From positions 1-42,152 of IMG/VR virus record IMGVR_UViG_3300025168_017083: a DNA stretch of 42,152 nt. One strand, given 5' to 3'. A program made the position numbers and the translations under genes. The stretch comes from a virus. Shown piece after piece: positions 9,560 through 42,152 of the stretch. The notes under the pieces are model-generated. The model worked only from the letters and a program-made list of their open reading frames with translations. It was not told where the DNA came from and made no database searches. Within the stretch, counting starts at the first letter, position 1. Every line of letters begins with the position of its first letter.

Positions 9560-9575
9560 AAAAAATAATACTCTT

Positions 9576-9584
9576 ATATTTATA
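9576..9584 (+). promoter_or_regulatory. Candidate late promoter element ATATTTATA before tube gene
   Basis: CTTATATTTATAATAG sits in the 56-nt gap between sheath and tube genes, 31 nt upstream of the tube start. It shares the ATATTTATA nonamer with three other tail-gene gaps. Separate transcription of the abundant tube protein would make sense, but this is inferred. Confidence 0.4.
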
Positions 9585-9615
9585 ATAGAATAACAAGAAA
9601 AATACCAATAAAAAG

Positions 9616-10101
9616 ATGGCAATATTAAATACAAACGAAATGATGTTCACAGCATTCGAACCTAAGTTGCAAAACAGGTTTGTAATGTATATCGACGGTA
9701 TTCCGGCTTACTTAGTTAAAAAAGTATCCAGACCAAACGTTACATTTGGCGATGTAACTCTCGATCACATCAACGTGAAAAGAAAACTTAAAGGAAAAGC
9801 AGATTGGGGTAATATTACAGCAGACCTTTATGATCCCGTAACACCTTCAGGAGCACAAGCAGTAATGGAGTGGGTTCGTTTGTCACACGAGTCAGTAACG
9901 GGTAGAGATGGTTACTCTGATTTCTATAAAAAAGATATTAGATTTAATGCACTTGGTCCTGTTGGAGATGTTGTTGAAGAGTGGATTTGTAAAGGAGCAT
10001 ATGTTCAATCAGCTAACTTTGGAGATGCTGATTGGACTTCAGACACACCAATGAATATTAACTTAACTATTAGAATGGATTACGCCATCTTAAATTACTA
10101 A
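9616..10101 (+). CDS. gp19: Tail tube protein (T4 gp19-like)
   Basis: The 161-residue product matches the tail tube family in size (T4 gp19 is 163) and pattern: FEPKLQNRFVMYIDGIPAYLV, VTFGDVTLDHINVKRKLKGK, then WGNITADLYDPV and AVMEWVRLSHES. It ends INLTIRMDYAILNY. It forms the rigid inner tube inside the sheath. It lies directly after the sheath gene, as in other myoviruses. A terminator-like hairpin follows its stop, as expected for a highly expressed monocistronic message. Confidence 0.94.
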   Translation: MAILNTNEMMFTAFEPKLQNRFVMYIDGIPAYLVKKVSRPNVTFGDVTLDHINVKRKLKGKADWGNITADLYDPVTPSGAQAVMEWVRLSHESVTGRDGYSDFYKKDIRFNALGPVGDVVEEWICKGAYVQSANFGDADWTSDTPMNINLTIRMDYAILNY

Positions 10102-10123
10102 TAGTAATAATTTATATAAAAGA

Positions 10124-10147
10124 AAAGCGCCTATTGGCGCTTTCTTT
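10124..10147 (+). terminator. Intrinsic terminator after the tail tube gene
   Basis: An 8-bp stem AAAGCGCC/GGCGCTTT with a TATT loop (10124-10143) lies 22 nt after the tube stop, followed by CTTTATTT. It is one of the few GC-rich stems in an AT-rich genome, and its position fits rho-independent termination. Confidence 0.75.
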
Positions 10148-10152
10148 ATTTA

Positions 10153-10197
10153 CTATATATGTATATCTGAAACCAGTTTTAAACATTAAATAAAGTT
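10153..10197 (+). promoter_or_regulatory. TATATATGTATATC element and AAAGTTATG leader
   Basis: Just after the terminator, TATATATGTATATC repeats the sequence at about 6223. It is followed 28 nt later by AAATAAAGTTATG, which starts the next gene. A promoter here would restart transcription after the tube terminator. Confidence 0.4.
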
Positions 10198-10947
10198 ATG
10201 GAACAAACAAAACCAACCTTCCCAACAGAGGAAGTAACATTACCTTCAAAAGGCCTCCTATATCCTGAAGATTCCCCCTTATCTAAGGGGACTGTTGAAA
10301 TGAAATATATGACTGCTAAAGAAGAAGACATTCTTACAAACCAAAATTATATTGAAAATGGAACAGTAATAGATAAATTACTTCAATCATTAATAGTAAC
10401 AAAAATAGATTATGATGATTTATTAGTTGGGGATAAAAATGCAATTTTAATAGCTGCTCGTATTTTAGGGTATGGAAGTGAATATTCATTCCAATATAAA
10501 GAAGAAAATATTGAAATAGATTTAACAAATGTAGAAGATAAACCATTAAATGAAAAATTAATCACTAAAGGTAAAAATACATTTCACTACACCCTTCCTA
10601 CATCTAAAACTGAAATAACTTTTAAACTTTTAACACATAGGGATGAGAAAGCAATCACTAATGAAATAAAAGGTCTTAAAAAAATAGATAAAAAATCATC
10701 ATTCGAAATTACAACTAGGATGAAATATCTAATAACATCTATAAATGGTGACAGTGATAAAAAAACCATCCGAGAATTTGTTGACACACAGCTATTAGCA
10801 CGCGATTCAAGATCATTAAGAAACTATGCCTCTAATATTCAACCCGATATTGATTTAACATTCGAGTATGAAGATACTAAAGGCGACACATCGAGAGTAA
10901 ATATCCCTATCGATGTTAACTTTTTTTGGCCTGACGCTGAAGTATAG
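10198..10947 (+). CDS. gp26: Baseplate hub/assembly protein, T4 gp26-like
   Basis: The 249-residue protein has the pattern of the T4 baseplate gp26 family. It begins with EVTLPSKGLLYPEDSPLSKG, then EMKYMTAKEEDILTNQNYI and NAILIAARILGYGSEYSF, and ends FFWPDAEV. T4 gp26 acts in assembly of the central baseplate hub. The final part overlaps a second open frame (10913-11185). Just before the stop there is a run of seven T's (10921-10927) read as TTT TTT TGG. A -2 slip there keeps TTT pairing and continues into the second frame, giving a fused longer form. The start follows the AAAGTTATG leader. Confidence 0.8.
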   Translation: MEQTKPTFPTEEVTLPSKGLLYPEDSPLSKGTVEMKYMTAKEEDILTNQNYIENGTVIDKLLQSLIVTKIDYDDLLVGDKNAILIAARILGYGSEYSFQYKEENIEIDLTNVEDKPLNEKLITKGKNTFHYTLPTSKTEITFKLLTHRDEKAITNEIKGLKKIDKKSSFEITTRMKYLITSINGDSDKKTIREFVDTQLLARDSRSLRNYASNIQPDIDLTFEYEDTKGDTSRVNIPIDVNFFWPDAEV

Positions 10948-11185
10948 GAATCTCCTATTTACCCAATTGCATGATCTAGTGTACCATGGCGGTGGTGGAT
11001 TTATACACTCAGAAGTTTATAACATGCCCGTTTGGATGAGAATGTTTCATATTGGAAAAATTAATGAATTCAATAAGAAACAAAAAGCAGAGATGGACAA
11101 ACAGAAAGGTCAATCTAATGTGGGGGATGGGCAATTATCAAGACCCAATATAAATCCCTCATCAACATATAATATCAGTAAATAG
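10913..11185 (+). CDS. Downstream partner of gp26-like gene, probably reached by frameshift
   Basis: The frame carries YRNLLFTQLHDLVYHGGGGF and EVYNMPVWMRMFHIGKINEF, resembling a short conserved protein that follows gp26-like genes in marine T4-like phages (recalled, not searched). The ATG at 10913 is inside the upstream gene with no leader like those of its neighbours. The first ten or so residues (MLTFFGLTLK) mirror the upstream coding sequence in another frame. Either it starts there, or it is made as a C-terminal extension of the gp26-like protein through slippage on T7 at 10921. The C-terminal 35 residues are hydrophilic and lysine- and glutamine-rich. The conserved, clearly coding part runs from about 10943. 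Confidence 0.65.
   Translation: MLTFFGLTLKYRNLLFTQLHDLVYHGGGGFIHSEVYNMPVWMRMFHIGKINEFNKKQKAEMDKQKGQSNVGDGQLSRPNINPSSTYNISK
10921..10927 (+). other. Candidate slippery site (T7) for programmed frameshift
   Basis: Seven consecutive T's are read AAC TTT TTT TGG in the gp26-like frame. Moving back two bases leaves TTT codons in place and enters the frame of the 10913-11185 product. A -1 slip would hit TGA within three codons. No strong downstream stem was seen by eye. Confidence 0.45.
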
Positions 11186-11186
11186 G

Positions 11187-11211
11187 AGACGCGCAAGCGT
11201 CTTTTATTTTT
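11187..11211 (+). terminator. Intrinsic terminator after the gp26-like region
   Basis: AGACGC and GCGTCT form a 6-bp stem with a GCAA tetraloop (11187-11202), followed by TTTATTTTTT. It begins 2 nt after the stop at 11185. This is a classic rho-independent layout. Confidence 0.8.
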
Positions 11212-11213
11212 TC

Positions 11214-11222
11214 ATATTTATA
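11214..11222 (+). promoter_or_regulatory. Candidate late promoter element ATATTTATA before tape measure gene
   Basis: The nonamer lies directly after the terminator and 18 nt upstream of the tape-measure start. It is identical to those at 6622, 9576 and 13244. The terminator-promoter-gene order supports a regulatory role. Confidence 0.45.
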
Positions 11223-11240
11223 TAAGAATAATAATATACT

Positions 11241-13241
11241 ATGGGAGCTAACGACGACTTAGAAAAAGGTAATAAACTACTAAAAGACCAAGCAGTAGAA
11301 GCAGGATATGTAGATAATGCATATAAATCTATTGCCGCTACATTATCAAATATGTTTGAAGACGTAATTGATAATCTTAATGGTGTTGATGCTGTAGGGG
11401 GTAAAATAGCTAAATCTTACGAAAGAGATATTGTAGGTTCTATTAAAAAAATGTCTAGTGGATTAGAAAAAACTATAGAAATCCAGGATAAAATAAATAA
11501 AGGTCACAATGTTTCGAAAGAAATAGAATCAAAATTAGCCACATTAAAAACAAGAGCTCTATTAACTAGTCAAAAAATATCTCAAGCTGAAGGCTTATCA
11601 TCAGAAGCCAAAGTAAAACTGAGAACTGCTTTAAAAGAGCAGTACATACTTGAAACAAAGAACCTTAACTCTCTTAAAGCACAAAATGAAGAGACACAAA
11701 AGAATAAAAGCTTTACACAATCTATAGGGGAAAACTTACAAGGATGGGCAAATAATCTAGATGAAACAGGAGCATTAGCTTCTATATTAAAAGGAGATTT
11801 TAACTCTATAGCGGGTACTACAAAAGCATTAGAATTAGTCTTTGGTTTATTAGCAAAAGCAACTTTACAAGCAAATAAATCAACAGCTAATATACAAAAA
11901 GAACTAGGAGTAGGAACCTTAACAGCAACACAATTTAGACTCCAAATAGCAGGAGCTGCTTTTTCAGCTAACGATTTAAGAATCACCACTGAGGGTTTAA
12001 TTAAAGCAAACTCTACACTCAATTCCAGCTACCAAACAGCAGCTATTTTTAATAAAGATATATTAAAAGGAGCAACATCCATATTAGACGCACAAGTTAT
12101 GTCTGAGGAAGCTACCTCACAATTAGCAGGGGATGCTGCACGTTTAGGTATGACTTTTGATCAATCACTCAAGACACAAGAAAACGCAGTAAATGCTGTT
12201 AATTCACAAACAGGAGCCCAAATAAGTCTAAAAGCAGTATTAGAAGCCTCAAATAAGGTATCGGGTCAAATAAGAGCCCAATTAGGAGCTAACCCTGAAG
12301 CTATAGCTAGAGCAGTAACACACGCAAAAGCATTAGGTTTTGAATTAGATCAAATAGCATCAGCAGGTAAATCAATGTTAGATTTTGAGTCTTCTATAAG
12401 TGCTGAACTAGAGGCTGAACTATTAACAGGAAAACAACTTAATCTTGAAAAAGCTAGATTAGCAGCATTAACAGGAGACTATGAAACTCTAACCTCTGAA
12501 ATAGTAAACAATGTGGGAGATTGGAATTCTTTCCAAGATATGAATGTCCTTCAACAAGACGCTATAGCTAAATCTGTAGGAATGACAGCTGATCAATTAG
12601 CAAATTCATTAATTACAGAAGAAAATAGATCACAATTATTAGCAGATGCTATAGCTTCCGGGGATAAACAAAGAGTATCGGAATTAAAAGCACTAGATAC
12701 ACAAGAAAAATTTGCTAAAGTAATGCTTCAAATTAAAGGCCTATTTGTAGATATAGCAACAATATTTTCACCTATAGCAGATCTTGTAGGACTAATAGCT
12801 GATGGTTTGGGAACATGGGTAGGTAAATTAGGGGCGGTTATAGCGGCTTTTATAATTATGAGAAAATTAAGTATAGGAACAGCTATCACTAAATTATTTT
12901 CCGCAGCTTCGTGGGCGGGTCCTGCTGCCCCTATTGTAGGATTAGCGTCAGTATTAGCAATGATGGGTGCTGTAAGTCAGTATTCGAAAAAAATGGATGA
13001 TGGTACAATTAGTCCAGAAGGTTTAGTTGTAAACTCCCCAAAAGGATCAATTAATCTTAATAAAGATGATTCTATAATCGCAGGAACTAATTTAGGAGGA
13101 GGAGAAGGAAACACTCAACAAGCACCCGCACCCGTTATAGTAAAAAGCACAATACAATATGATTCATTTTCTAGAAATAGCTCAGCAGCATATGGAGGAA
13201 AATTTTCAGAAGAAGCAAGACACACACACTCATTTGTTTAA
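11241..13241 (+). CDS. Tail tape measure protein
   Basis: The 666-residue protein is largely alpha-helical with long Ala/Lys/Glu/Leu-rich stretches (about 1-180 and 330-480). Near the C-terminus it has a hydrophobic segment, LVGLIADGLGTWVGKLGAVI followed by AAFIIMRKL (about 510-550), then a Gly/Ala-rich segment (PIVGLASVLAMMGAV). The motif TISPEGLVVNSPKGSINLNK near 590 resembles the C-terminal region of other myophage tape measures. It sets tail length and occupies the tube lumen before injection. The order sheath, tube, gp26-like, tape measure fits tail modules, where tape measures follow the assembly chaperones. The length is close to T4 gp29 (590), so a T4-like tail length is expected. Confidence 0.82.
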   Translation: MGANDDLEKGNKLLKDQAVEAGYVDNAYKSIAATLSNMFEDVIDNLNGVDAVGGKIAKSYERDIVGSIKKMSSGLEKTIEIQDKINKGHNVSKEIESKLATLKTRALLTSQKISQAEGLSSEAKVKLRTALKEQYILETKNLNSLKAQNEETQKNKSFTQSIGENLQGWANNLDETGALASILKGDFNSIAGTTKALELVFGLLAKATLQANKSTANIQKELGVGTLTATQFRLQIAGAAFSANDLRITTEGLIKANSTLNSSYQTAAIFNKDILKGATSILDAQVMSEEATSQLAGDAARLGMTFDQSLKTQENAVNAVNSQTGAQISLKAVLEASNKVSGQIRAQLGANPEAIARAVTHAKALGFELDQIASAGKSMLDFESSISAELEAELLTGKQLNLEKARLAALTGDYETLTSEIVNNVGDWNSFQDMNVLQQDAIAKSVGMTADQLANSLITEENRSQLLADAIASGDKQRVSELKALDTQEKFAKVMLQIKGLFVDIATIFSPIADLVGLIADGLGTWVGKLGAVIAAFIIMRKLSIGTAITKLFSAASWAGPAAPIVGLASVLAMMGAVSQYSKKMDDGTISPEGLVVNSPKGSINLNKDDSIIAGTNLGGGEGNTQQAPAPVIVKSTIQYDSFSRNSSAAYGGKFSEEARHTHSFV

Positions 13242-27713: not shown

Positions 27714-29564
27714 ATGAACATAACACAAGAGATCTTATCTGATATTGTAGTTTACAACAAGTATGCAAAATATAATCAGGATAAACAAAGAAGAGAAACC
27801 TGGGAAGAGTTAGTTACCCGAAATAAAAATATGCATCAAACTAAATTTCCTCAATTAAAAGAAGAGATTGAAGAAGTTTATAAATTAGTATATGATAAGA
27901 AAATCTTGCCTTCAATGCGAAGTTTACAATTTGCAGGAAAACCTATTGAAATAAATAACTCAAGAATATTTAATTGTTCTTTTCTACCAATTGATGATTT
28001 TAGATCTTTTAGTGAAATAATGTTCCTTCTTTTATCAGGATGTGGAGTTGGTTTCTCTGTTCAACAGCATCACATTGAAAAATTACCTGAAATTCATAAA
28101 GCTACTAAAGAAAGAAGATTCTTAATTGGAGATTCAATTGAGGGATGGGCGGATGCTATAAGAGCACTTATGAGAGCTTATTTAGGCAAAAGTAAAACAC
28201 TCCCTCTATTTGATTATAGAGATATTAGACCCAAAGGAGCAGAATTAATTACGGTAGGAGGTAAAGCACCAGGTCCTGAACCCTTAAAAGAATGTTTGTT
28301 TCAAATCCAAAAAGTATTAGATAGAAAAAAAGATGGAGACTCTTTATCCTCTATAGAAGCACATGATATTATTTGTCACATTGCTGATGCAGTATTATCA
28401 GGGGGTATTAGAAGAGCAGCATTAATTTCTTTATTTGATTTAGATGATGAAGATATGTTGACATCTAAATTTGGCGCGTGGTGGGAGCATAATCCACAAA
28501 GAGGTAGAGCAAATAACTCAGCAGTAGTAATTAGATCTAAAGTTAAAAAGAAAGATTTCTTTGGTTTATGGGATAAGATTGTTGCAAGTAATTCAGGGGA
28601 ACCAGGAATTTATTTCTCAGATGATAAAGATTGGGGGACAAATCCATGCTGTGAAATTGCTTTAAGACCTTATCAATTTTGTAATTTATGTGAAATTAAT
28701 GCATCTAATATTGAATCACAGGAAGATTTAAATAAAAGAGTAAAAGCAGCATCATTTATTGGGACTTTACAAGCCTCTTACACAGATTTTCATTATTTAA
28801 GACCCATTTGGAATAAAAATACAGATAAAGACGCACTTGTAGGAGTAGGGATGACAGGAATTGGAAGTGGAATTATTTTAAAATATAATTTAGAGGAAGC
28901 AGCCAAAATTGCAATGAATTCTAATAAAGAAACAGCAAAACTTATAGGAATTAATAAAGCAGCTCGTGTAACTACTGTAAAACCTTCAGGAACTAGTTCA
29001 TTAGTGTTAGGTACATCATCAGGCATACATGCTTGGCATAATGATTTTTATATTCGTCGGATGAGAATTGGTAAAAATGAAGCACTTTATACTCACTTAT
29101 TAGAAAATCACCCAGAACTTATAGAGGATGATTTTTTTAAACCTGAAATTCAAGCTATTATCTCTGTTCCACAAAGCGCCCCTGAGGGAGCTATCTTAAG
29201 AACAGAATCAGCAATGGATTTACTTGAGAGAACTAAAAAATTCAATATGGAATGGGTAAAAACAGGACATAGAAAAGGATCAAATACAAATAATGTATCA
29301 GCTACTATTTCAGTAAAAGATAATGATTGGGAGCAAGTAGGAAAATGGATGTGGGAAAATAAACATACATTTAATGGATTATCTGTACTCCCTTATAGTG
29401 GTGGAAGTTATAAACAAGCTCCTTTTGAAGACATTACTAAAAATCAATATGAGGAAATGGTATCACATCTTCAATCTATTAATTTAAGACATGTTCATGA
29501 GGATACAGATAATACTACACAAAAAGAAAATCTCGCATGCGCAGGAGGAAACTGTGAAATATAA
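27714..29564 (+). CDS. nrdJ: Class II (B12-dependent) ribonucleoside-triphosphate reductase
   Basis: This 616-residue reductase makes dNTPs from NTPs using adenosylcobalamin. All five cysteines needed by the monomeric Lactobacillus-type enzyme appear in the right order. C88 (FNCSF) and C323 (QFCNL) are the redox pair, C312 (NPCCEI, thiyl radical) has E314 nearby, and the C-terminal pair C609/C614 (ACAGGNCEI) reloads the site. The C312-C323 and C609-C614 spacings equal those of the known enzyme. NPCC replaces the usual NPCG. It is about 120 residues shorter than the Lactobacillus reductase, suggesting reduced regulatory insertions. It depends on host B12. Confidence 0.93.
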   Translation: MNITQEILSDIVVYNKYAKYNQDKQRRETWEELVTRNKNMHQTKFPQLKEEIEEVYKLVYDKKILPSMRSLQFAGKPIEINNSRIFNCSFLPIDDFRSFSEIMFLLLSGCGVGFSVQQHHIEKLPEIHKATKERRFLIGDSIEGWADAIRALMRAYLGKSKTLPLFDYRDIRPKGAELITVGGKAPGPEPLKECLFQIQKVLDRKKDGDSLSSIEAHDIICHIADAVLSGGIRRAALISLFDLDDEDMLTSKFGAWWEHNPQRGRANNSAVVIRSKVKKKDFFGLWDKIVASNSGEPGIYFSDDKDWGTNPCCEIALRPYQFCNLCEINASNIESQEDLNKRVKAASFIGTLQASYTDFHYLRPIWNKNTDKDALVGVGMTGIGSGIILKYNLEEAAKIAMNSNKETAKLIGINKAARVTTVKPSGTSSLVLGTSSGIHAWHNDFYIRRMRIGKNEALYTHLLENHPELIEDDFFKPEIQAIISVPQSAPEGAILRTESAMDLLERTKKFNMEWVKTGHRKGSNTNNVSATISVKDNDWEQVGKWMWENKHTFNGLSVLPYSGGSYKQAPFEDITKNQYEEMVSHLQSINLRHVHEDTDNTTQKENLACAGGNCEI

Positions 29565-30044: not shown

Positions 30045-30533
30045 ATGGGAAAATATCAATCAACAAAATTATTCGACAATTATTCAATAGCAATTAGACA
30101 ATGGAGGGCTCAACACTCCCATTGTCAATTACTTCATGGATATGCATTAAAATTTAAAGTATGGTTTGAATCTAATACCCCTTTTGATAAAAATGAGGGT
30201 TTAGATGATATGAATTGGATTGTAGATTATGGGGGTTTTAAAGACGCACCTATAGGAAATGGTTTAAAATCATGGATGGACGATATGTGGGATCACACCC
30301 TTTTAATTGAAAAAGACGATCCTTATTTAGATTTTTTCGAATCAGCAGCTATGGAGGGACTTTGTAAGCTAACAGTAATGGATAAATTAGGAGCAGAAAG
30401 CTGCGCTAGAACAGTTTATAATCATTTTAATGATGTATTATCTAAAACAGATGGAGGAAGGTGTAAAGTAGTAAAGGTAGAATGTTTTGAAAATGATAAA
30501 AATTCATCAATTTACTACGAAACAAATGACTAA
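30045..30533 (+). CDS. queD: QueD-like 6-carboxytetrahydropterin synthase
   Basis: This 162-residue protein has the QueD/PTPS fold pattern. H24-S-H26-C27-QLL-H31-G-Y33 includes the catalytic Cys and zinc-binding His, and LDDMNWIVDYGGFK and WDHTLLIEKDDP are the second catalytic region. The classical CxxxHGH motif reads CQLLHGY, so the last zinc His is Tyr. I recall other QueD-like proteins with HGY, so this may be subfamily-specific. QueD converts dihydroneopterin triphosphate to 6-carboxytetrahydropterin in preQ0 biosynthesis. The FolE, QueE and QueC genes are all within 6 kb. It starts 17 nt after the preceding gene. Confidence 0.85.
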   Translation: MGKYQSTKLFDNYSIAIRQWRAQHSHCQLLHGYALKFKVWFESNTPFDKNEGLDDMNWIVDYGGFKDAPIGNGLKSWMDDMWDHTLLIEKDDPYLDFFESAAMEGLCKLTVMDKLGAESCARTVYNHFNDVLSKTDGGRCKVVKVECFENDKNSSIYYETND

Positions 30534-30654
30534 TAAAGAATTTATAGAGTGGTTAAGAGGATTTTTAGAAAAAACATACATGGATGAAGATCCTAATAAT
30601 CCTATAACCCTAAAAATAATATACAGTAAACTAAAAACAGTAGAAGATGAGTAG
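30526..30654 (+). CDS. Small 42-residue protein between queD and the next gene
   Basis: An ORF starting 8 nt inside the queD end encodes MTNKEFIEWLRGFLEKTYMD, ending LKTVEDE. It overlaps the next start by 8 nt. The double overlap and the helical, acidic character suggest a real small gene. The E-W-L-x-G-F opening recalls short phage proteins of unknown function. Confidence 0.55.
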   Translation: MTNKEFIEWLRGFLEKTYMDEDPNNPITLKIIYSKLKTVEDE

Positions 30655-30889
30655 AACTCGAAAAAATGGTACTAGAAGCCGAGAAGAAAGACATACAGAA
30701 GCAGTTAAAAGAAACACAAACTTTGCTTCTCTTTCCCTTACAGAACAACTTCAATATTTAGATCTTCGTTTGGGTGAAGGAGTAGGAGCGATTAAACAAC
30801 GAGCTAAAATTCAAAATAAAATTGATCGTCCTCAAATGACTGAACAAAAGAAAGCTAAGCAAAAGAAAAGAGCTAAAAAGAAAAAGTAA
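30647..30889 (+). CDS. Very basic 80-residue protein
   Basis: MSRTRKNGTRSREERHTEAV begins the product, and a lysine-rich run ends it (KKAKQKKRAKKKK). The middle (SLTEQLQYLDLRLGEGVGAI) could form two helices. The charge suggests nucleic-acid binding, but no domain is identified. It overlaps the preceding small gene by 8 nt and the DpdA-like gene by 1 nt, placing it in the preQ0/transglycosylase operon. Confidence 0.6.
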   Translation: MSRTRKNGTRSREERHTEAVKRNTNFASLSLTEQLQYLDLRLGEGVGAIKQRAKIQNKIDRPQMTEQKKAKQKKRAKKKK

Positions 30890-31695
30890 TGTTTAAAGTA
30901 TCCCACGAGTTACCAATCAATATGCTTGACAAAAGTTTTGAAATTAATGATTATGAGTATTGTTTACCACACTTATTAGACCAAAACGAAAAATATAAAG
31001 AACACTTTCTTTATGCTAAAGAAGCAGGTAGTTATATTATTATGGATAATTCACTTCATGAATTAGGTAAAGCATATGATACTAAAAGATTATTACATTG
31101 GATTAATGTTTTAGAGCCAGATGAATTTATTGTACCTGATGTATGGCAAAATAAAAACCAAACATTAGTTAATGCTAAACAATGGTCAAAAATAGAATTA
31201 CCAGAAGGAGTAACCAAAGTAGCAGTAGTACAAGCTCAAAATTATAATGAAGCACACGAATGTTATAATATTTTAAATTTCCATCATGAGTATAAAAAAA
31301 TAGCATTTAGTTATGGGGCAGATTGGTATGCTGATATGTTTCCTCATCCTAATCCTTTGGTAGGTAAAATGATGGGTCGTATAATGACTATATCAAAAAT
31401 GTATAAGTCGGGATTAATAAGGGACAATCATAGAGTACATTTATTAGGATGCGCATTACCCCAAGAATTTGGCTATTATACTGATTTTCCTTTTATTGAA
31501 TCTATTGATACTTCAAATCCTATAATTCATGGTTTAGAAGGAGTACAATATAATAGTTTGGGGTTATTAACAAAATCTTCTACTAAAATAGATCAAATAG
31601 ATAAAGAAATCAATAGAGAAACGCGTTACAATATTAACCATAACCTCATCCGTTTTAAACAATTTATACAGGATGGAAACACACAATTATACTAA
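30889..31695 (+). CDS. dpdA: DpdA-like DNA transglycosylase (7-deazaguanine insertion)
   Basis: The 268-residue protein resembles phage DpdA proteins, relatives of tRNA-guanine transglycosylase. Landmarks are IIMDNSLHELG (50-60, with the conserved Asp D53), DEFIVPDVWQ (78-87, D84), VQAQNYNEAHEC, YKKIAFSYGADW (135-146), HRVHLLGCALPQEF (181-194) and ESIDTSNPIIHGL (204-216). DpdA swaps guanine in DNA for a 7-deazaguanine such as preQ0. It is shorter than bacterial TGT (about 375), as for phage DpdA, and lacks the TGT zinc site. The neighbouring genes supply preQ0, which strongly supports this role. The substrate strand and target site are unknown. Confidence 0.8.
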   Translation: MFKVSHELPINMLDKSFEINDYEYCLPHLLDQNEKYKEHFLYAKEAGSYIIMDNSLHELGKAYDTKRLLHWINVLEPDEFIVPDVWQNKNQTLVNAKQWSKIELPEGVTKVAVVQAQNYNEAHECYNILNFHHEYKKIAFSYGADWYADMFPHPNPLVGKMMGRIMTISKMYKSGLIRDNHRVHLLGCALPQEFGYYTDFPFIESIDTSNPIIHGLEGVQYNSLGLLTKSSTKIDQIDKEINRETRYNINHNLIRFKQFIQDGNTQLY

Positions 31696-32163
31696 ATGAT
31701 ATTAATTACACTAACAATATGTTCATTAGCTTTTGCAGCATACATTTATTTTTCACACGATAAAATATCTCAACGAAAAGCAGAGTCTTATTTAGCAAAA
31801 TGGAAAATAAAAGAAGAAAAAGCTATTCGAGAAGATGCATATTCTCGTTCTAGAGCTGTAAGTTTTGGTAAAACTATTGAACATTATGTTCCTTTTATGG
31901 AAGATTTTCCTGTAGCCCCCGGTGATGTTCAATTTTTTGGAAAACCTATTGATTATATTGCTTTTACAAATAGAGGAAGTAAGAAAAATTGTTCAGTACA
32001 TTTTATTGAAGTAAAAAGTGGAAAATCAAACCTAAATAATCATCAAAAAAATATTAAAAACGCAATTACTGAGGGAAGAATCCATTGGCATGAATTTAAT
32101 GTAGATGGTGTTTGGGAACACGAGTCAAAAGAAGAACACATGGAAAACAGTCATAAAAAATGA
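31696..32163 (+). CDS. Membrane-anchored Holliday-junction-resolvase-like nuclease
   Basis: The 155-residue protein opens with a hydrophobic segment (MILITLTICSLAFAAYIYF), then a basic linker and a nuclease-like core: FPVAPGDVQFFGKPIDYIAF with D86, then HFIEVKSGKSNL with E105-V-K107. The pair D...EVK fits the PD-(D/E)XK pattern of predicted Holliday-junction-resolvase-related endonucleases, in which QxxIxxAI follows (HQKNIKNAI). It lies directly between the DpdA-like and queC genes with no gap, and the anchor would put it at the inner membrane. It could process phage recombination intermediates or degrade unmodified host DNA. Both are inferences. Confidence 0.75.
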   Translation: MILITLTICSLAFAAYIYFSHDKISQRKAESYLAKWKIKEEKAIREDAYSRSRAVSFGKTIEHYVPFMEDFPVAPGDVQFFGKPIDYIAFTNRGSKKNCSVHFIEVKSGKSNLNNHQKNIKNAITEGRIHWHEFNVDGVWEHESKEEHMENSHKK

Positions 32164-33008
32164 AACAAGCAGTATTATCACTAAGTGGAGGAATGGATAG
32201 CAGTACAGTCCTCCTGCGTCTATTAGCAGACGGATATAAAGTTACTGCCTTAAGTTTTGATTACGGTCAAAAACACAAAGTAGAATTAGAACGCGCTCAA
32301 TCATTAGTAAATTACCTTAATAATTCTAGAATTGGAACTCTTCCAACAGGAGATTTAACATCTTTTTTTCCAAACATCCACTATGGAGTAATTAAACTTG
32401 ATGGTTTAGCTCCTATGCTTAATAGTGCTTTAGTAGAAGGGGGAAATGAAGTACCTGAAGGTCACTATGAAGATAAAAATATGAAAGAAACAGTTGTTCC
32501 AAATAGGAATAAAATATTTAGTTCAATAATTCAAGCAGTAGCATTAAGTAAAGCAAATGAAAAAAATACAAAAGTACATATCGCGATGGGTATTCATGCA
32601 GGTGATCACGCAATTTACCCTGATTGTAGACAAGAATTCAGGGATGCTGATTATAAGGCTTTCACCGAAGGTAACTGGGACGCTAATCGCGTCAGCTATG
32701 TTACCCCTTATCTTAATGGGGATAAATATGATATTCTTCTCGATGGGGTTAAGTGCTGCAAACAGCTGGAATTGCAATTTAATAAAGTTTATAGAAATAC
32801 AAATACTTCTTATAAGCCCATTAATATTAATGGGAAGTGGTACAGTGATTATAAATCGGCTTCTTCGGTCGAGAGGGTCGAAGCGTTTATCAAGCTGGGC
32901 AGACCAGATCCTTGTGAATACGCTGATGAATCAGGCCCCGTTTCGTGGATTAAAGTAAAAAACTCAGTAGAAAAAGTATTAGGAAAAAATAGTAGACCTG
33001 TACTATGA
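32160..33008 (+). CDS. queC: QueC-like 7-cyano-7-deazaguanine (preQ0) synthase lacking zinc cysteines
   Basis: The 282-residue protein has an N-terminal PP-loop SGGMDS (9-14), SFDYGQKH, VVPNRNKIFSS and HAIYPDCRQEF, all standard in QueC, which converts carboxydeazaguanine to preQ0 with ATP and ammonia. The usual C-terminal zinc cluster, where CxxCxxC precedes VERxEAF, reads D230-Y-K-S233-A-S-S236 before VERVEAF, so no cysteine is in the zinc positions. The 3' half (about 32650-32960) uses GC-richer codons than its neighbours. It overlaps the nuclease gene by 4 nt and the queE gene by 4 nt. Confidence 0.88.
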   Translation: MKQAVLSLSGGMDSSTVLLRLLADGYKVTALSFDYGQKHKVELERAQSLVNYLNNSRIGTLPTGDLTSFFPNIHYGVIKLDGLAPMLNSALVEGGNEVPEGHYEDKNMKETVVPNRNKIFSSIIQAVALSKANEKNTKVHIAMGIHAGDHAIYPDCRQEFRDADYKAFTEGNWDANRVSYVTPYLNGDKYDILLDGVKCCKQLELQFNKVYRNTNTSYKPININGKWYSDYKSASSVERVEAFIKLGRPDPCEYADESGPVSWIKVKNSVEKVLGKNSRPVL

Positions 33009-33775
33009 AAAGAATAGAAGATTATAATAAAGTACTTCCAGTATTAGAAGTATATCGTTGTGTACAAAGTGAAGGTTCACGGTTTGGAAGACCTACTATA
33101 GCTGTAAGAACTACAGGTTGTACTCATAGATGTTGGTTTGGAGATGGAGGGTGGTGTGATAGCTGGTATACAAGTATTCATCCTCAAAAAGGTATTTTTA
33201 CTTTTAATGATATAATTAATATTTATGATGAGAACCCCCAAGTGAAAGAAATGATGCTCACAGGAGGATCTCCTACAATGCATGCTGCATTAGTAAATGA
33301 ACTTACTCACTTTGCCCATGAAAGAGAAATCATCATTACAATTGAAACAGAAGGATCACATTTTGTTGAGACCGATTATCCAATTGATCTCATATCTCTT
33401 AGTCCTAAGTTTTCTAATTCTATTCCTAGGGTGGGTATTACTACTCCCGGTGGTAAAGTTGTTGATGAAAGGTTTGTCAAGCAGCATAACAAGTTTAGAT
33501 TACATTACGAAAATATTCAAAAAACCTTAGAATATCATAGTGACTATCATTATAAACCAGTATGGGATGGTACAGATGAAGGTTTAAAAGAAATTGAAGA
33601 TTTTAGAGTAAAAATGAATATTCCTAAGGATAAAACATTTGTAATGCCTGCGGGAGACACACGAGAAACTTTAATAGAAATGTATCCTAAAGTATTTGAA
33701 ATGGTAGCAGAACATGGATATAATATGACAGGTAGAGATCATATAATTGCATATAATACAGAAAGAGGTGTTTAA
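33005..33775 (+). CDS. queE: QueE-like radical SAM 7-carboxy-7-deazaguanine synthase
   Basis: The 256-residue protein has QueE features. VYRCVQSEGSRFGRPTIAVR (17-36) is the substrate-binding opening. C39-THR-C43-(7 residues)-C51 is the cluster motif, and MMLTGGSPTM is the SAM motif. The cluster spacing is C-x3-C-x7-C, longer than the standard Cx3Cx2C, with FGDGGW inserted, and WCDSWYTSIHP follows. QueE uses SAM to contract 6-carboxytetrahydropterin to CDG, the QueC substrate. It directly follows queC with a 4-nt overlap, and its stop shares a base with the next start. Confidence 0.86.
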   Translation: MKRIEDYNKVLPVLEVYRCVQSEGSRFGRPTIAVRTTGCTHRCWFGDGGWCDSWYTSIHPQKGIFTFNDIINIYDENPQVKEMMLTGGSPTMHAALVNELTHFAHEREIIITIETEGSHFVETDYPIDLISLSPKFSNSIPRVGITTPGGKVVDERFVKQHNKFRLHYENIQKTLEYHSDYHYKPVWDGTDEGLKEIEDFRVKMNIPKDKTFVMPAGDTRETLIEMYPKVFEMVAEHGYNMTGRDHIIAYNTERGV

Positions 33776-33906
33776 TGAAGGAAAAAGCACTAGAATTATT
33801 AGAGGAAATAAGATCTAATATTAATATATGTTGTGCAGTAACTATGGAACCTGATGAAGTAGAAGATTTAATAGATAAATTAAAAGATATAATAAAAAAA
33901 ATATAA
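33775..33906 (+). CDS. Small 43-residue acidic helical protein
   Basis: The ORF starts in the TAATG of queE and ends in the TAATG that begins the next gene, both one-base overlaps, which is strong support for a real gene. MKEKALELLEEIRSNINICC begins a protein with Glu/Lys/Leu-rich helices and two adjacent cysteines, ending DLIDKLKDIIKKI. No known family. It may be a small regulator or adaptor. Confidence 0.6.
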   Translation: MKEKALELLEEIRSNINICCAVTMEPDEVEDLIDKLKDIIKKI

Positions 33907-34280
33907 TGAAAAAATTTATAACAAGCCTGATAGTATTGGTTACTCTATCTACATCGGCTCAGTGCAACCAACATGTTTTTAGCTCAGTAGGAGCTACCAA
34001 ATGGACTAATTTTGAATATATAGATTGTGATGGAAATATTCACAACTTTGGACTACCTGCTGGAGGATATACTATAATCTTCTGTGCAGACATAGGAACT
34101 GCATTTGCTTTAAATGGTGATGGATTTGTTTATCCATTACTAACAGAACATCCGGCATACGCATCTTGCCAAGAGCCAGAATTAGTTCCATGTCCATATG
34201 ATTTCGACGACGACGGAATTATAGGAGTTTCAGATCTACAATCATTTCTATCAAGTTATGGAACATCATGCGAAAATTAA
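33906..34280 (+). CDS. Secreted protein with dockerin-like EF-hand C-terminus
   Basis: The 124-residue product has a signal peptide (MKKFITSLIVLVTLSTSAQC, residues 1-20), then a domain with FEYIDCDGNIHNFGLPAGGY. The C-terminal segment is a near-perfect calcium-binding loop: D99-x-D101-x-D103-G104-x-I106-x3-D110, followed by LQSFLSSYG and a final Cys. Segments like CPYDFDDDG...SDLQSFLSSYGTSC are common at the ends of secreted Flavobacteriia proteins. It is probably a host-derived cargo gene. It overlaps the next gene by 13 nt, so both should be made together. A calcium-dependent surface or secreted partner is plausible. Confidence 0.75.
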   Translation: MKKFITSLIVLVTLSTSAQCNQHVFSSVGATKWTNFEYIDCDGNIHNFGLPAGGYTIIFCADIGTAFALNGDGFVYPLLTEHPAYASCQEPELVPCPYDFDDDGIIGVSDLQSFLSSYGTSCEN

Positions 34281-35365
34281 TTTACTTACTAGCCTTATGG
34301 GCACCAATGACATCAGCTCAATGTGATGTAGAATTAACAAATGTTAACTGGGAGACTGGAGATGTACAGATAGTTGTACACAACTCTGACAACTGTGGAA
34401 TATACTGGGGTGTGCCGTGGATAGATCATATCAACCTTGGAGTATCTAATGGAATAGATACTTTATGCATACCGTGTCAGAATTTTCCATTGCATTCTTT
34501 TTTAAATTTTGATGAGCAACATTTTGGTGATGGTATTGGTGATTATGGCTTTGCTGGAGATACACTTAATTTTAATCTAGCAGATGCACAAAACGCTAAC
34601 TTAAGCGACACTAGTAATCCATTAACTGTTTATGAAAGGTGGATGGAATGGTATAGTGATAGCACGTTTTGTCAAGGAGCGGAAATATTTGTGTGGCAGA
34701 TAAATCACTCAAATGCTCCACAAGTACTAAACCCCGATTGGTATAATCCATTTGGAACAGCTCCAGACTATCCAGATGTTAATCCATGGGACAATATATT
34801 ACCTATTTACGGGGTATGTCCATGTGATACTGTTTATATAGATATAGAGGTTATTGAATACCTCACAGATACTATAATTGAATATGTAGATGTTGAGTGG
34901 ATAACAACTGACACTATATACATAACAGAAACTATTATTGAATACGACACTATTACATTAATGGAGACAGAATATGTTGATGTTATAATAGACAACTATG
35001 TCTACGTAACAGACACTATAACAGAGTTCGTATCCATTACTACATACATTGATTGTGAAACTGGAGAAGAATGTGGAGAACTTTCACCTTGTGATGAAAC
35101 TTCTATATATGCACCCAATGTTGTTACTCCTAATGATGATGGTTGGAATGATACATGGCAAGTAATAGCCGATGGAGCATGCTGGGATCAGTGGGAAGTT
35201 AGAATATACAATAGATGGGGTGGACTTGTTTGGATCAGTGCTTTAAGTACAGATGAATGGGAAGCGGAGGTTGCCACTGGACTATATGTTTATACTATAA
35301 CAGCCCACAGCGCTAATAATGCTAGTGTCTTTCAGTTCAATGGTAATGTAACAGTATTATATTAA
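34268..35365 (+). CDS. Secreted protein with type IX (type B) C-terminal sorting domain
   Basis: The 365-residue product begins with a signal peptide (MRKLIYLLALWAPMTSAQC). The N-terminal domain (about 20-185) has several Cys and Trp residues. A Thr/Ile/Glu/Asp-rich stalk (about 190-262) repeats TDTI.IEY and YVDV. The C-terminal 85 residues (APNVVTPNDDGWNDTW at 282, WEVRIYNRWGGLVW, ATGLYVYTITA, NGNVTVLY) match the gliding-motility-associated/T9SS type B sorting domain. Bacteroidota use it to export and anchor large surface proteins. A phage protein with this signal would pass through the host's machinery to the cell surface. Alternatives are a recently captured host gene or an adhesin. Its frame is intact. 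Confidence 0.85.
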   Translation: MRKLIYLLALWAPMTSAQCDVELTNVNWETGDVQIVVHNSDNCGIYWGVPWIDHINLGVSNGIDTLCIPCQNFPLHSFLNFDEQHFGDGIGDYGFAGDTLNFNLADAQNANLSDTSNPLTVYERWMEWYSDSTFCQGAEIFVWQINHSNAPQVLNPDWYNPFGTAPDYPDVNPWDNILPIYGVCPCDTVYIDIEVIEYLTDTIIEYVDVEWITTDTIYITETIIEYDTITLMETEYVDVIIDNYVYVTDTITEFVSITTYIDCETGEECGELSPCDETSIYAPNVVTPNDDGWNDTWQVIADGACWDQWEVRIYNRWGGLVWISALSTDEWEAEVATGLYVYTITAHSANNASVFQFNGNVTVLY

Positions 35366-35376
35366 AAAAATAAAAT

Positions 35377-35886
35377 ATGAGTAAAGAAATAATTACAGAA
35401 AAAGAATTAACTAAAAGATTAGATGATTTAGGAGAATCCCTATCAACAAAATGTAAGGATATTGGGGGAGGTATAGTATTCATATGTGTTATGAAAGGAG
35501 GATTTATGTTTTTTAGTGATCTTATAAAACGTATTAAATATCCAATTGAAGTTGATTTTGTTAGATGTAGTTCTTATGAGGGACAAGAACAAAAGAAATT
35601 CACATTACATTATGATGTTGAAGCTGATGTAACAGATAAAACAGTGTATTTAGTAGATGATATCTTTGACTCAGGAAATACTATAAAAATGTTAACAAAT
35701 CATTTTAAAGCCAAAGGGGCAAAATCAGTTACTCCTGTTGTAGCAGTTTATAAAGAAAATGTGGATTTCCCAACAGTATATCATATATACAAACAACCAA
35801 AAGATGTTAACCCATGGTATATTGGATATGGTATGGATGGGCCAAAGGGATATAGTAGAAATTTAAAAACAATTAATATATTATAA
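35377..35886 (+). CDS. hpt: Hypoxanthine phosphoribosyltransferase-like
   Basis: The 169-residue protein has the phosphoribosyltransferase pattern. GGGIVFICVMKGGFMFFSDL (around residue 31) is the first loop, VDFVRCSSYEGQEQ the flexible loop region, and VYLVDDIFDSGNTI (around 90-103) the PRPP loop with the acidic pair. The end, VNPWYIGYGMDG, is conserved in the Hpt family and stacks on the purine. It would convert hypoxanthine or guanine to IMP or GMP. It starts 11 nt after the surface-protein gene and ends at the folE start (1-nt overlap), so it could feed GTP to preQ0 synthesis. Xanthine/guanine specificity cannot be settled from sequence. Confidence 0.85.
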   Translation: MSKEIITEKELTKRLDDLGESLSTKCKDIGGGIVFICVMKGGFMFFSDLIKRIKYPIEVDFVRCSSYEGQEQKKFTLHYDVEADVTDKTVYLVDDIFDSGNTIKMLTNHFKAKGAKSVTPVVAVYKENVDFPTVYHIYKQPKDVNPWYIGYGMDGPKGYSRNLKTINIL

Positions 35887-36581
35887 TGGAAAATAAAAGG
35901 AGAAAAATCCACGAAGAGCTAGAAGTTGTAAAAACAGGTTTTGCAAATGGTGTAGCAGAAGGTTTTCCACTTACAAATAAGCAAAAAGAAAAAATGATTA
36001 CTCAAGCTGAAAAAGCATATGGGAAATTTTTAGATGCTTTAAAATGTGACTGGAGAAATGATCCTAACTCAATGGAAACTCCAAGACGTGTAGCTAAAGC
36101 TTATGTGAATGATTTATGGGCTGGCAGATATACAGCAATGTCTCCAATTACTTCCTTTCCAAGTGATGGTTATGATGGTATTATTATTGAAAGAAATATT
36201 CCATTAACTTCAATGTGTTCTCATCATCACCAAACAATTGGAGGAGTAGTTCATATTGGTTATATAGCGGGGGAAGATGGTCAAGTAATTGGATTATCTA
36301 AACTTAATAGAATTGTAGAGCTATTTGGTCGTAGAGGTGCTATCCAAGAACAATTAACATCAGCTATTCATAATGCTGTAGGTAAAATTACTGAGGGTAA
36401 TAGAGGAGTTATTGTTACTATTGTAGGTACTCATAACTGTGTAAGTTGTAGAGGTGTTAAACACGAAGGAGCAGCTATGGTTACTACTAAAGCATCAGGA
36501 GTATTTAGAGATAATAATAATTTATCAAGGAAAGAATTTTTTGATAGTTTAAAAATTAATAATGGAGGACACAATATTTAA
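35886..36581 (+). CDS. folE: GTP cyclohydrolase I (FolE)
   Basis: The 231-residue enzyme converts GTP to dihydroneopterin triphosphate, the entry to preQ0 biosynthesis. NSMETPRRVAKAYVNDLWAG (61-80) is the N-terminal helix. Zinc ligands C111 (SMCSHHH), H114 and C185 (HNCVSCRGV) are present. GLSKLNRIVELFGRR (136-150) is the conserved core helix. It resembles bacterial FolE rather than FolE2. A pathway function together with QueD, QueE and QueC is well supported by the cluster. Supplying folate is an alternative but less likely here. Confidence 0.93.
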   Translation: MENKRRKIHEELEVVKTGFANGVAEGFPLTNKQKEKMITQAEKAYGKFLDALKCDWRNDPNSMETPRRVAKAYVNDLWAGRYTAMSPITSFPSDGYDGIIIERNIPLTSMCSHHHQTIGGVVHIGYIAGEDGQVIGLSKLNRIVELFGRRGAIQEQLTSAIHNAVGKITEGNRGVIVTIVGTHNCVSCRGVKHEGAAMVTTKASGVFRDNNNLSRKEFFDSLKINNGGHNI

Positions 36582-37590: not shown

Positions 37591-40221
37591 ATGAGTTATA
37601 AAAACTGTTATGTAGTAAGAGAACCAGGAAATTGGGGATTTTGGAATGTTCATTTATGGACGGATGAAGGATATTCGGTAGAATCTTTCCAAAATTATGG
37701 GTATCAAGAATGTAGTGAATATCAATCTACACATAGAGGTTTAAAAGGAGAACCCTTAAAAAGGGTAACCAATTGGGATAAAAACACAACAGATTTACAT
37801 TATGCAGATCATACGCGTGGAAATATCCACACTAAATTTTTAATAGATAAATATGGAACAAATGATACTCCCTCTGTAACTCATAGGGAAGTATTTTTTG
37901 ATATTGAGATTGAAATGGGGGGAGCGCTTACACCCGAATATATTAAACAAGCCCCCAAACCTATCACTTCAATAGCTTGGTGGGATAAACAAGTAGATGA
38001 GTGGGCGATTGTTATCCTAGATAAAACAGGTGAAATTAAACCTGGTATTCAAGATGGTAGAGAAATTATTCCTGTTAAACGTGAAAACGATTTAATTGAG
38101 GTATTTCTTACTAGAATGGAAGCTATCTCTCCAGATATTCTGATAGGTTATAATAGTGATTATTTTGATATACCTTACATCTATTATAGGATAAAAAATC
38201 GCTTAGGTGAGCGCATAGCAAAGCGTTTATCCCCTATTCGTGTGGTTGAAGAAAGAGACCCTAGATGGTATCCAGATCAACCAATTAGAATAGCAGGGGT
38301 AGCTTCACTTGATTATATGCGATTACATAAAAAATATTCTTTCCAACAAGAACCTTCTTATAAATTAGATTCTCTTGGAGAAAAATATGTGGGGCAAGGT
38401 AAAATAGAATACGATGGTTCACTTGATAGATTATTTGCGGAGGATAAACAAAAGTTCATTGATTATAACTTTGTAGATGTTTTAATCCTTAAAAAGCTAG
38501 ATGAAAAATTTCAATACATTGATTTAACAAAAAACTTAGCACATAAAGGAAAAACATCATACGAAGAAGTATATCAATCATCTAGAATACATGATGGGGC
38601 TATTTCAAGCTATCTATTATCTGAGGATATAATTCCACCTAATAAAGACCATAATCCCTTTAGAAAAGACACTTACGCAGGAGGTTATTTATTTTGCCCT
38701 AAAACAGGCATTTATAACTATATGTTTGATGAGGATTTAACATCACTATATCCTTCAATTATTATGTCTCTTAATATTGGTAGAGAAACATTTCTTGGTA
38801 GAATTGTAACATTTAATGATAGAGATAATAGATTAGGATTAAATGATCTTAAAGAAATGGATCCTGATAAGGAATTCGAAATAGAAAATCTTAAACGTCA
38901 AACAAAAACAATGACTGCTAAGCAATTAATAGAATTAATTGAAGGTAATAAATTAGCAATCTCAGCAAATGGTGTAATGTTTAGAACAGATAAACCATCA
39001 ACACTTTCTATTGTGCTATCTAAATGGTTTGATGAAAGGGTTAGATATAAGAATGCAATGAAAAAGGCATTCCAATCAGGAAATAAAGAAGAGGGCCAAT
39101 TAAACCACCTACGTCAATATACAATGAAAATCTTGTTAAATTCATTGTATGGTGCTACTGCATTACCTACATTTAGATATGGTTCTGTTCTTTTAAGTGA
39201 AGGAATTACCCTCACAGGACAAAGAATCATCCAAGACTCAGGTACATTTATAAATCAAGAAGCCGAAAAACTACTTCAAACGGGTAAGGATGTTTATAAC
39301 ATCAAAACCACCCCTACACAACGTTATGAAGATTGTAGTGGAGTTGTAATGTATGAGGATACAGATTCATGTTATGTAAATGCTGAGCCTTTATTACGTA
39401 AAATGTATCCGAATTTTGATAGCTTAGAAGAAGTAGATAAGTCAAATAAGTTAGAAGCATTGTCTTTAGATTATCAAGATAGGATTAATGACTATTATGT
39501 AGGATTTGCTCAAGAGGCATTTAATGTCCCTAAAGATAAAAATCGCCTCGAAATGAAAACTGAATGTACAATTCGCTCCGCTTTCTTTTCAGGTAAACGT
39601 AGATATGCACAATATATAACAAAGAAAGAAGGTGTACCTTGTGATGAAATTGATGTAAAAGGACTTGATTTTAAGAAATCTAACTTCCCACCACTCTTTA
39701 GAACATTTTTTGAAGAAATCTTAAATAAAATACTATTTGGTGAGACAAGAGAAAAAATTGACCAACAAATTCTAGAATTTAAAGACTCATTAGATGATCG
39801 TGATTTTGTTGCAATTTCAAAACCAACAGGAGTAAGAGGAATAGACAAATATTTAGCTGCACCCGCAACTGCAGGATGTATATTTTCAACATTCGAAAAT
39901 AAAGCACCTGTGGGGGTTAAAGCAGCTGTTAGATATAATGATTTGCTTAAATTTAAAGGTCTAGATAAAAAACACACCCAAATTGTAGAGGGAGATAAAA
40001 TTAAATGGGTATATTTAAGAGATAACCCCTATAAAATAGATACTATGGGGTTTTTAGATTTTGATATGCCTCCTAAGATCAGAGAATTTATTGAAGAATA
40101 TGTAGATAAATCAAGAGCATTTGATACAATATTAAAAAATAAATTAGAGTCATTCTACCAAGATTTAGGTTGGGGGGATTTAACACTTAATACGTATGTT
40201 CAGCAGTTTTTTAAATTTTAA
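37591..40221 (+). CDS. gp43: Family B DNA polymerase (T4 gp43-like)
   Basis: The 876-residue replicative polymerase has an exonuclease domain with FFDIEIE (D104, E106) and YNSDYFDIPYIY. The palm has D382-LTSLYPSII (motif A), the fingers helix KILLNSLYGA (motif B) and YEDTDS with D590 and D592 (motif C). SGKRRYAQYITKKEG is the thumb-side KKRYA element. It is close in length to T4 gp43 (898). The C-terminus ends TYVQQFFKF, possibly a clamp-binding tail, and the sliding clamp gene begins 7 nt later. It would be the main replicase. The divergent family A protein at 20612 is a second polymerase. Confidence 0.95.
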   Translation: MSYKNCYVVREPGNWGFWNVHLWTDEGYSVESFQNYGYQECSEYQSTHRGLKGEPLKRVTNWDKNTTDLHYADHTRGNIHTKFLIDKYGTNDTPSVTHREVFFDIEIEMGGALTPEYIKQAPKPITSIAWWDKQVDEWAIVILDKTGEIKPGIQDGREIIPVKRENDLIEVFLTRMEAISPDILIGYNSDYFDIPYIYYRIKNRLGERIAKRLSPIRVVEERDPRWYPDQPIRIAGVASLDYMRLHKKYSFQQEPSYKLDSLGEKYVGQGKIEYDGSLDRLFAEDKQKFIDYNFVDVLILKKLDEKFQYIDLTKNLAHKGKTSYEEVYQSSRIHDGAISSYLLSEDIIPPNKDHNPFRKDTYAGGYLFCPKTGIYNYMFDEDLTSLYPSIIMSLNIGRETFLGRIVTFNDRDNRLGLNDLKEMDPDKEFEIENLKRQTKTMTAKQLIELIEGNKLAISANGVMFRTDKPSTLSIVLSKWFDERVRYKNAMKKAFQSGNKEEGQLNHLRQYTMKILLNSLYGATALPTFRYGSVLLSEGITLTGQRIIQDSGTFINQEAEKLLQTGKDVYNIKTTPTQRYEDCSGVVMYEDTDSCYVNAEPLLRKMYPNFDSLEEVDKSNKLEALSLDYQDRINDYYVGFAQEAFNVPKDKNRLEMKTECTIRSAFFSGKRRYAQYITKKEGVPCDEIDVKGLDFKKSNFPPLFRTFFEEILNKILFGETREKIDQQILEFKDSLDDRDFVAISKPTGVRGIDKYLAAPATAGCIFSTFENKAPVGVKAAVRYNDLLKFKGLDKKHTQIVEGDKIKWVYLRDNPYKIDTMGFLDFDMPPKIREFIEEYVDKSRAFDTILKNKLESFYQDLGWGDLTLNTYVQQFFKF

Positions 40222-41474: not shown

Positions 41475-42152
<678 letters not shown>

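Follow-up and report, generated by a model that had tools for sequence, protein, structure and literature searches.

Among the surface structures of Bacteroidota that could plausibly act as phage receptors are type IX secretion system (T9SS) and gliding proteins. In phage T5, receptor blocking is carried out by Llp, a superinfection-exclusion protein that is a periplasm-facing lipoprotein and protects the progeny from debris. Type B cargo crosses the outer membrane via the T9SS, for which it needs a PorP/SprF-family shuttle, and then stays at the surface, where it either keeps its place or is carried along by the gliding machinery (PMC9143113, PMC12618676). Secretion of this type requires five motifs, A to E, and Flavobacterium johnsoniae has orphan cargo that is served by a remote shuttle (PMC12618676). 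In phages, the closest described case is Cryophage, which carries three type A T9SS cargo genes and for which a hijack of host secretion and a link to superinfection were suggested (Bellas et al. 2020, PMC7468147).

We analyzed a viral stretch of 42,152 nucleotides (IMG/VR record IMGVR_UViG_3300025168_017083), hereafter the window, in which the gene at 34268-35365 is confirmed, at the level of its sequence, to encode a type B T9SS cargo protein. The locus resembles Cryophage in the apparent Bacteroidetes host of the phage, in the presence of T9SS sorting-domain proteins and in the variability of the cargo, but the type A domains of Cryophage sit on enzymes or on a PA14 protein, and it has no described two-gene module with a small half-dockerin partner (PMC7468147). 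Similarly, the crAss-BACON cluster 2 gut phages have ORFs with T9SS sorting domains, which lie near the head gene section and, unlike the protein of the window, are BACON-repeat proteins; in the accessible part of that article, we found no analysis of their sorting-domain type or export (PMC6949934). The Q-rule proteins of Porphyromonas gingivalis phages share the Bacteroidetes-style signal peptides and a proposed role in host envelope modification, but they belong to other gene families, and the T9SS is unmentioned in their description (PMC10367356). The layout of the window's protein, a signal peptide followed by an extracellular part and a type B C-terminal domain (TIGR04131), is that of type B cargo in F. 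johnsoniae (SprB and the orphan Fjoh_1123 class), whose orphan members are likewise known to lack a shuttle gene next to them (PMC12618676, PMC9143113). Unlike this chromosomal cargo, it is phage-borne, has an N-domain without known relatives and is paired with a small EF-hand protein. What is new here is that the cargo is of type B, encoded by a two-gene unit and mobile, phage-encoded type A cargo being already published. An earlier, sequence-only reading of the window knew of no well-described phage example, a statement overturned by the T9SS cargo of Cryophage (PMC7468147) and the T9SS-domain ORFs of crAss-related phages (PMC6949934). Our literature search, outside which most of the subscription literature lies, turned up no report of phages with type B cargo, nor of the gene pair described below.

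The type B gene lies on the plus strand, starts with ATG and is a real ORF of 365 amino acids. Its first 17 residues (34268..34318) form a predicted signal peptide, MRKLIYLLALWAPMTSA^QCDV (predicted cleavage at ^, judged by pattern), which is hydrophobic, with a small residue at position -1 and a conserved glutamine at position +1. The segment Gln18-Cys19-Asp20-Val21 is invariant in the alignment, and Gln18, the predicted first mature residue, has a counterpart at the same point, just past the inferred cleavage, in 58 of the 60 distinct large proteins. This is the Q-rule, a Bacteroidota-specific processing feature (PMC5837995). Residues 18-185 (34319..34822) make up a Cys/Trp-rich extracellular domain, which we call the type 1 variant and delimited by alignment. 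It has no relative in Pfam or the PDB: the four N-domain variants gave no credible Pfam match up to an E value of 5, adhesin and carbohydrate-binding families included, and a profile search of the large protein against the PDB gave no match. A cohesin-like reading of this domain was considered and found to be without support. The domain is followed, at residues 186 to 270 approximately (34823..35077), by a stalk of TDT/IEY repeats whose length varies among relatives in the alignment. The signal peptide, Cys/Trp domain and TDT-rich stalk that had been read from the sequence are thus all present.

The sorting domain itself (CHU_C/TIGR04131) occupies residues 271-365 (35078..35362). It was matched by PF13585 (CHU_C) with an E value of 3.6e-14 and 53.1 bits (cut-off, 27; profile positions 3-77 of 86) and, marginally, by TIGR04131 (E value of 7e-9; 35.7 bits, cut-off 35; profile positions 3-55 of 85), which was also matched by all 15 aligned relatives. 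The conserved blocks PN.VTPN.DG.ND and YNRWG are present, as is the terminal strand. This strand (...FNGNVTVLY) departs from the TIGR04131 model but lines up with relatives whose ending, NGMVTIFR, is the more usual one, so that "intact", the word used for this type B domain in the sequence-only reading, is a fair description, and both profiles scored above their cut-offs. A chance origin of the architecture is excluded, since it is kept on dozens of contigs with dN/dS values of about 0.06-0.10.

Directly upstream, a plus-strand gene (33906..34280) encodes a protein of 124 amino acids, which has relatives on 59 viral contigs. Its 3' end overlaps the start of the type B gene by 13 nt, in agreement with the start-stop overlap with a second secreted protein that had been pointed out before. 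It begins with a predicted signal peptide, MKKFITSLIVLVTLSTSA^Q, and a glutamine directly after the signal peptide, as the Bacteroidota Q-rule demands, was found in all 43 distinct small proteins. The body is beta-rich, with the motifs CNQHVF...NGDGFVYPLL and six invariant cysteines; invariant cysteines occur in both proteins of the pair, which fits an oxidising compartment. The C terminus carries a single EF-hand/half-dockerin segment, CPYDFDDDGIIGVSDLQSFLSSYGTSC. Similarity to dockerins was weak (PDB 2y3n_B, E value of 4e-4, a single matching stretch), EF-hand_6 stayed under its cut-off (E value of 0.0098), and Dockerin_1 matched one of the 18 family members (E value of 0.094). The protein has one EF-hand-like segment where a type I dockerin has two, and we therefore rejected a true dockerin and call it only half-dockerin-like. 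Neither protein of the pair falls in any PHROGs family.

Scanning 2.9 million viral contigs with a profile, we recovered the small protein at 59 loci on viral contigs other than the window. With one contig from a metagenome-assembled genome (MAG) and the window itself, this gives 61 loci, not all of them independent, as related samples contributed some contigs that are nearly identical to one another. A type B protein neighbors the small protein in 56 of them, downstream in 45 and upstream in 11. The remaining five are all cut by contig ends, and in four of these the N terminus of the partner is visible before the cut. That the pair is kept in either gene order is the best indication of a joint action of the two proteins. 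The main finding is a conserved, reorderable two-gene module, of which the overlap alone had been seen earlier. A physical pairing of the two proteins would be somewhat probable. AlphaFold models of both, built from alignments of 15 and 18 sequences, were too poor to use (mean pLDDT of 39 and 58), which leaves the pairing, a contact between half-dockerin and N-domain, and the N-domain fold without structural support. At some loci, one extra gene, coding for a DUF5675 or a leucine-rich-repeat protein, stands between the two module genes. The latter is BspA-like with DUF285 repeats (L017:5461-7947; L062, about 8300-10800; L063, about 10300-11700). Of 58 loci, 24 have a DUF5675 gene close to the pair or between its two members (e.g., L016:7525-8001, L207 and L012), which suggests a lysis- or envelope-related neighborhood.

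Median pairwise dN/dS was 0.063 for the sorting domain, 0.094 for the N-domain and 0.061 for the body of the small protein, with higher values for the leaders; these are rough counts, as dS is near saturation for many pairs, and they indicate that the module is under purifying selection. There were at least four variants of the N-domain and three types of ending for the sorting domain, and they are combined differently among the loci. In one case (L025), the small protein is 84% identical to that of the window and the large protein only 37%. The loci compared thus reveal a mobile module that exchanges its N-domains and sorting domains, and such an exchange on similar partners is as expected for a surface recognition module.

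In the window, the pair sits within a preQ0 operon, between QueE (33005..33775, plus strand; 68.5% identical to QueE of Flavobacterium phage immuto) and a phosphoribosyltransferase gene (35377..35886, plus strand), which is followed by FolE (35886-36581) in an order common to immuto. Upstream lie genes for QueD-like (30045), DpdA-like (30889) and QueC (32160) proteins. The region from 30045 to 36581 encodes a near-complete 7-deazaguanine DNA-modification set (QueD-like, DpdA-like, QueC, QueE and FolE), in which the gene for an Endonuc_Holl-type nuclease (31696-32163) separates DpdA from QueC. The same operon exists in immuto without the pair, as QueE, two small ORFs, phosphoribosyltransferase, FolE, DUF4494 and a PRA-PH-type hydrolase. 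At the other loci of the pair, no preQ0/7-deazaguanine genes were found near it, and its neighbors are terminase, portal, endolysin or fiber genes. The location inside the preQ0 cluster, as first described, is correct for the window, but this setting is incidental and local; on other viral contigs, the relatives often stand next to packaging, lysis and fiber genes instead. For these same two reasons, the other loci and the immuto operon, we rejected a functional link of the pair to 7-deazaguanine modification.

Packaging, lysis or fiber genes lie within 6 kb of the pair in 36 of 58 loci; the terminase gene TerL does so in 24 of 58 and an endolysin gene in a few. In one group of loci, the pair adjoins TerL, portal and DUF5675 genes, with a TerL resembling that of Flavobacterium, Cellulophaga and Bacteroides phages. 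Others have M15 or other endolysins or fiber-like genes next to it, and in the window and on one further contig (L191) it stands among metabolic and other non-structural genes. Together with the relatives of the window's QueE in Flavobacterium and Cellulophaga phages, those of TerL link the module to Bacteroidota, and we infer that the host of the window phage is a T9SS-bearing member of this phylum. The tail sheath, ribonucleotide reductase and PolB genes of the window (6674-9559, 27714-29564 and 37591-40221) have their best relative in Microcystis phage Mel-JY01 (PP395634), with up to 62% identity. This likeness is at odds with that of QueE to Bacteroidota phages, and the host assignment of one phage may deserve a check. 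Chaperonin genes were also seen, Cpn10 in the window (41475-41789) and GroEL next to the module on the MAG-derived phage contig (L165:77-1690).

We propose that, during infection, both proteins would be exported by the host Sec system and that signal peptidase I would remove their leaders, leaving an N-terminal glutamine that the host glutaminyl cyclase could cap. The host T9SS would then take the larger protein across the outer membrane, with the type B C-terminal domain as the signal and a PorP/SprF-like shuttle supplied by the host. There, the protein would be retained at the cell surface, its stalk and variable N-domain facing outwards. Its small half-dockerin partner would act jointly with it and may bind the N-domain. 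Once displayed, the complex would mask surface receptors or compete for them, gliding/T9SS surface proteins being one example, and neither the infected cell nor its debris would then adsorb further phage. Export of the pair by Sec and T9SS is well supported by the leaders and the sorting domain, and we consider it highly probable. The earlier statement that surface anchoring follows from the sorting domain stands insofar as the protein is type B cargo, but the domain alone is insufficient, because a shuttle, often encoded next to its cargo, is needed and none is adjacent. Indeed, we detected no PorP/SprF shuttle next to the type B gene or in 18 viral records, in a search run with no positive-control genome. 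We presume that the shuttle comes from the host, as with F. johnsoniae orphan cargo, and regard its use as likely. Given the leader, the Q-rule site and the type B domain, a surface location is expected if the host has a T9SS and a compatible shuttle.

The purpose of the display can be given only tentatively. By analogy with T5 Llp, the pair may block a receptor on the outer membrane of the infected cell, with the difference that the window's protein would be displayed outside, through the T9SS. A receptor-masking or superinfection-exclusion device fits the variable outward domain, the conserved partner and the frequent late-gene setting. Superinfection resistance or receptor masking, which the sequence-only reading had raised, is plausible, and masking as such is a possibility to which we give somewhat less than an even chance. 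The reading as a whole, that of a mobile two-gene module displayed on the infected cell through Sec and the host T9SS and most likely masking receptors, comes close to an even chance. The recurrence of the pair in dozens of otherwise different uncultivated phages suggests that such viruses redecorate the infected host cell. It is possible, if rather doubtful, that uncultivated Bacteroidota phages share a dedicated two-component module of this kind, mobile and with interchangeable outer domains, which would use host PorP/SprF shuttles and build a phage-made structure outside the infected cell. If this were true, infected Bacteroidota cells would carry virus-made surfaces, and the module would stand for a class of surface remodelling during infection, and probably of superinfection exclusion, that has so far gone undescribed. 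A phage module exploiting the type B branch would furthermore tie phage biology directly to T9SS sorting, and its type B protein would be a natural, minimal cargo for studying orphan type B recognition.

The same T9SS-exported pair could instead serve adhesion or aggregation, making infected cells stick to particles or to one another, or occupy the gliding machinery and so change motility and encounter rates. F. johnsoniae type B cargo has been described as putative adhesins, the SprB type B C-terminal domain directs proteins to the gliding machinery (PMC12618676), and the long variable stalk and variable N-domain are in line with such a role. However, the N-domain belongs to no adhesin or carbohydrate-binding family that a Pfam search could recognize, and the benefit of adhesion is unclear for a pair that often stands among late phage genes, which makes this explanation unlikely, though it is the most serious of the alternatives. 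The late-gene neighborhood could also point to virion or lysis components, namely, an Ig-like CHU_C domain on the particle or periplasmic or outer membrane lysis factors tied to the nearby endolysin genes, and DUF5675 (24 of 58 loci), TerL (24) and, in a few cases, endolysin genes indeed occur within 6 kb. Yet the Q-rule Sec signal peptides and invariant cysteines indicate an extracytoplasmic location rather than cytoplasmic virion assembly, lysis needs no sorting domain, and the pairs of the window and L191 lie among non-structural genes; we regard this reading as improbable. Finally, the sorting domain could be a bait, a shuttle-less cargo that at high expression saturates the host translocon or shuttles; this would shut off the display of T9SS and gliding proteins, some of them possibly phage receptors. 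The need of type B export for specific shuttles and motifs (PMC12618676), the lack of a detected phage shuttle in the search described above and the place of the sorting domain among the most constrained parts would agree with a bait, but a bait alone would need neither a conserved small partner nor a conserved N-domain (dN/dS of about 0.09) nor N-domain exchange, and both this saturation and its consequence for receptors seem quite improbable to us. An assembly chimera or host contamination, to which one might turn because T9SS cargo is a host-type function, is refuted: another 59 viral contigs have the same pair, in many cases close to TerL, portal or RNR genes; the genes on either side of it in the window make up one unbroken operon, syntenic with that of immuto; and the small protein was found in only 1 of 84,980 species genomes, on a phage contig.

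This single contig among the bacterial and archaeal species genomes belongs to a Pseudomonadales bin and carries a phage terminase and a tail-fiber gene. A bacterial origin was rejected, since the contig has a phage TerL and the only CHU_C match of that genome is on the same contig, which is a mis-binned phage contig. Across the collections covered, the module is restricted to phages. INPHARED, with 50,697 records, yielded neither the small protein nor the type 2 N-domain, and the only related type B domains in it came from two uncultured huge-phage records, so that isolate-based work may have missed the module.

A search of IMG/VR with the type B domain alignment gave 194 confirmed stretches. 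Among the 80 that were kept, at least 16 represent the present module, and many of the others also start with an SP-QCD leader, from which we conclude that type B cargo, as predicted from these domains, is a broader habit of uncultivated phages that extends beyond the module. Proteins with an SP-Q(T)C leader and a type B domain, and no small partner in the stretch covered, were seen at L106-L111, L113-L115, L119, L120, L123, L124, L126, L137, L152, L157, L160 and L162. The two INPHARED records, LR756502.1 (e.g., 519091-519384) and LR745206.1, are unannotated huge phages of about 0.64 Mb, and each has type B sorting domains in three places.
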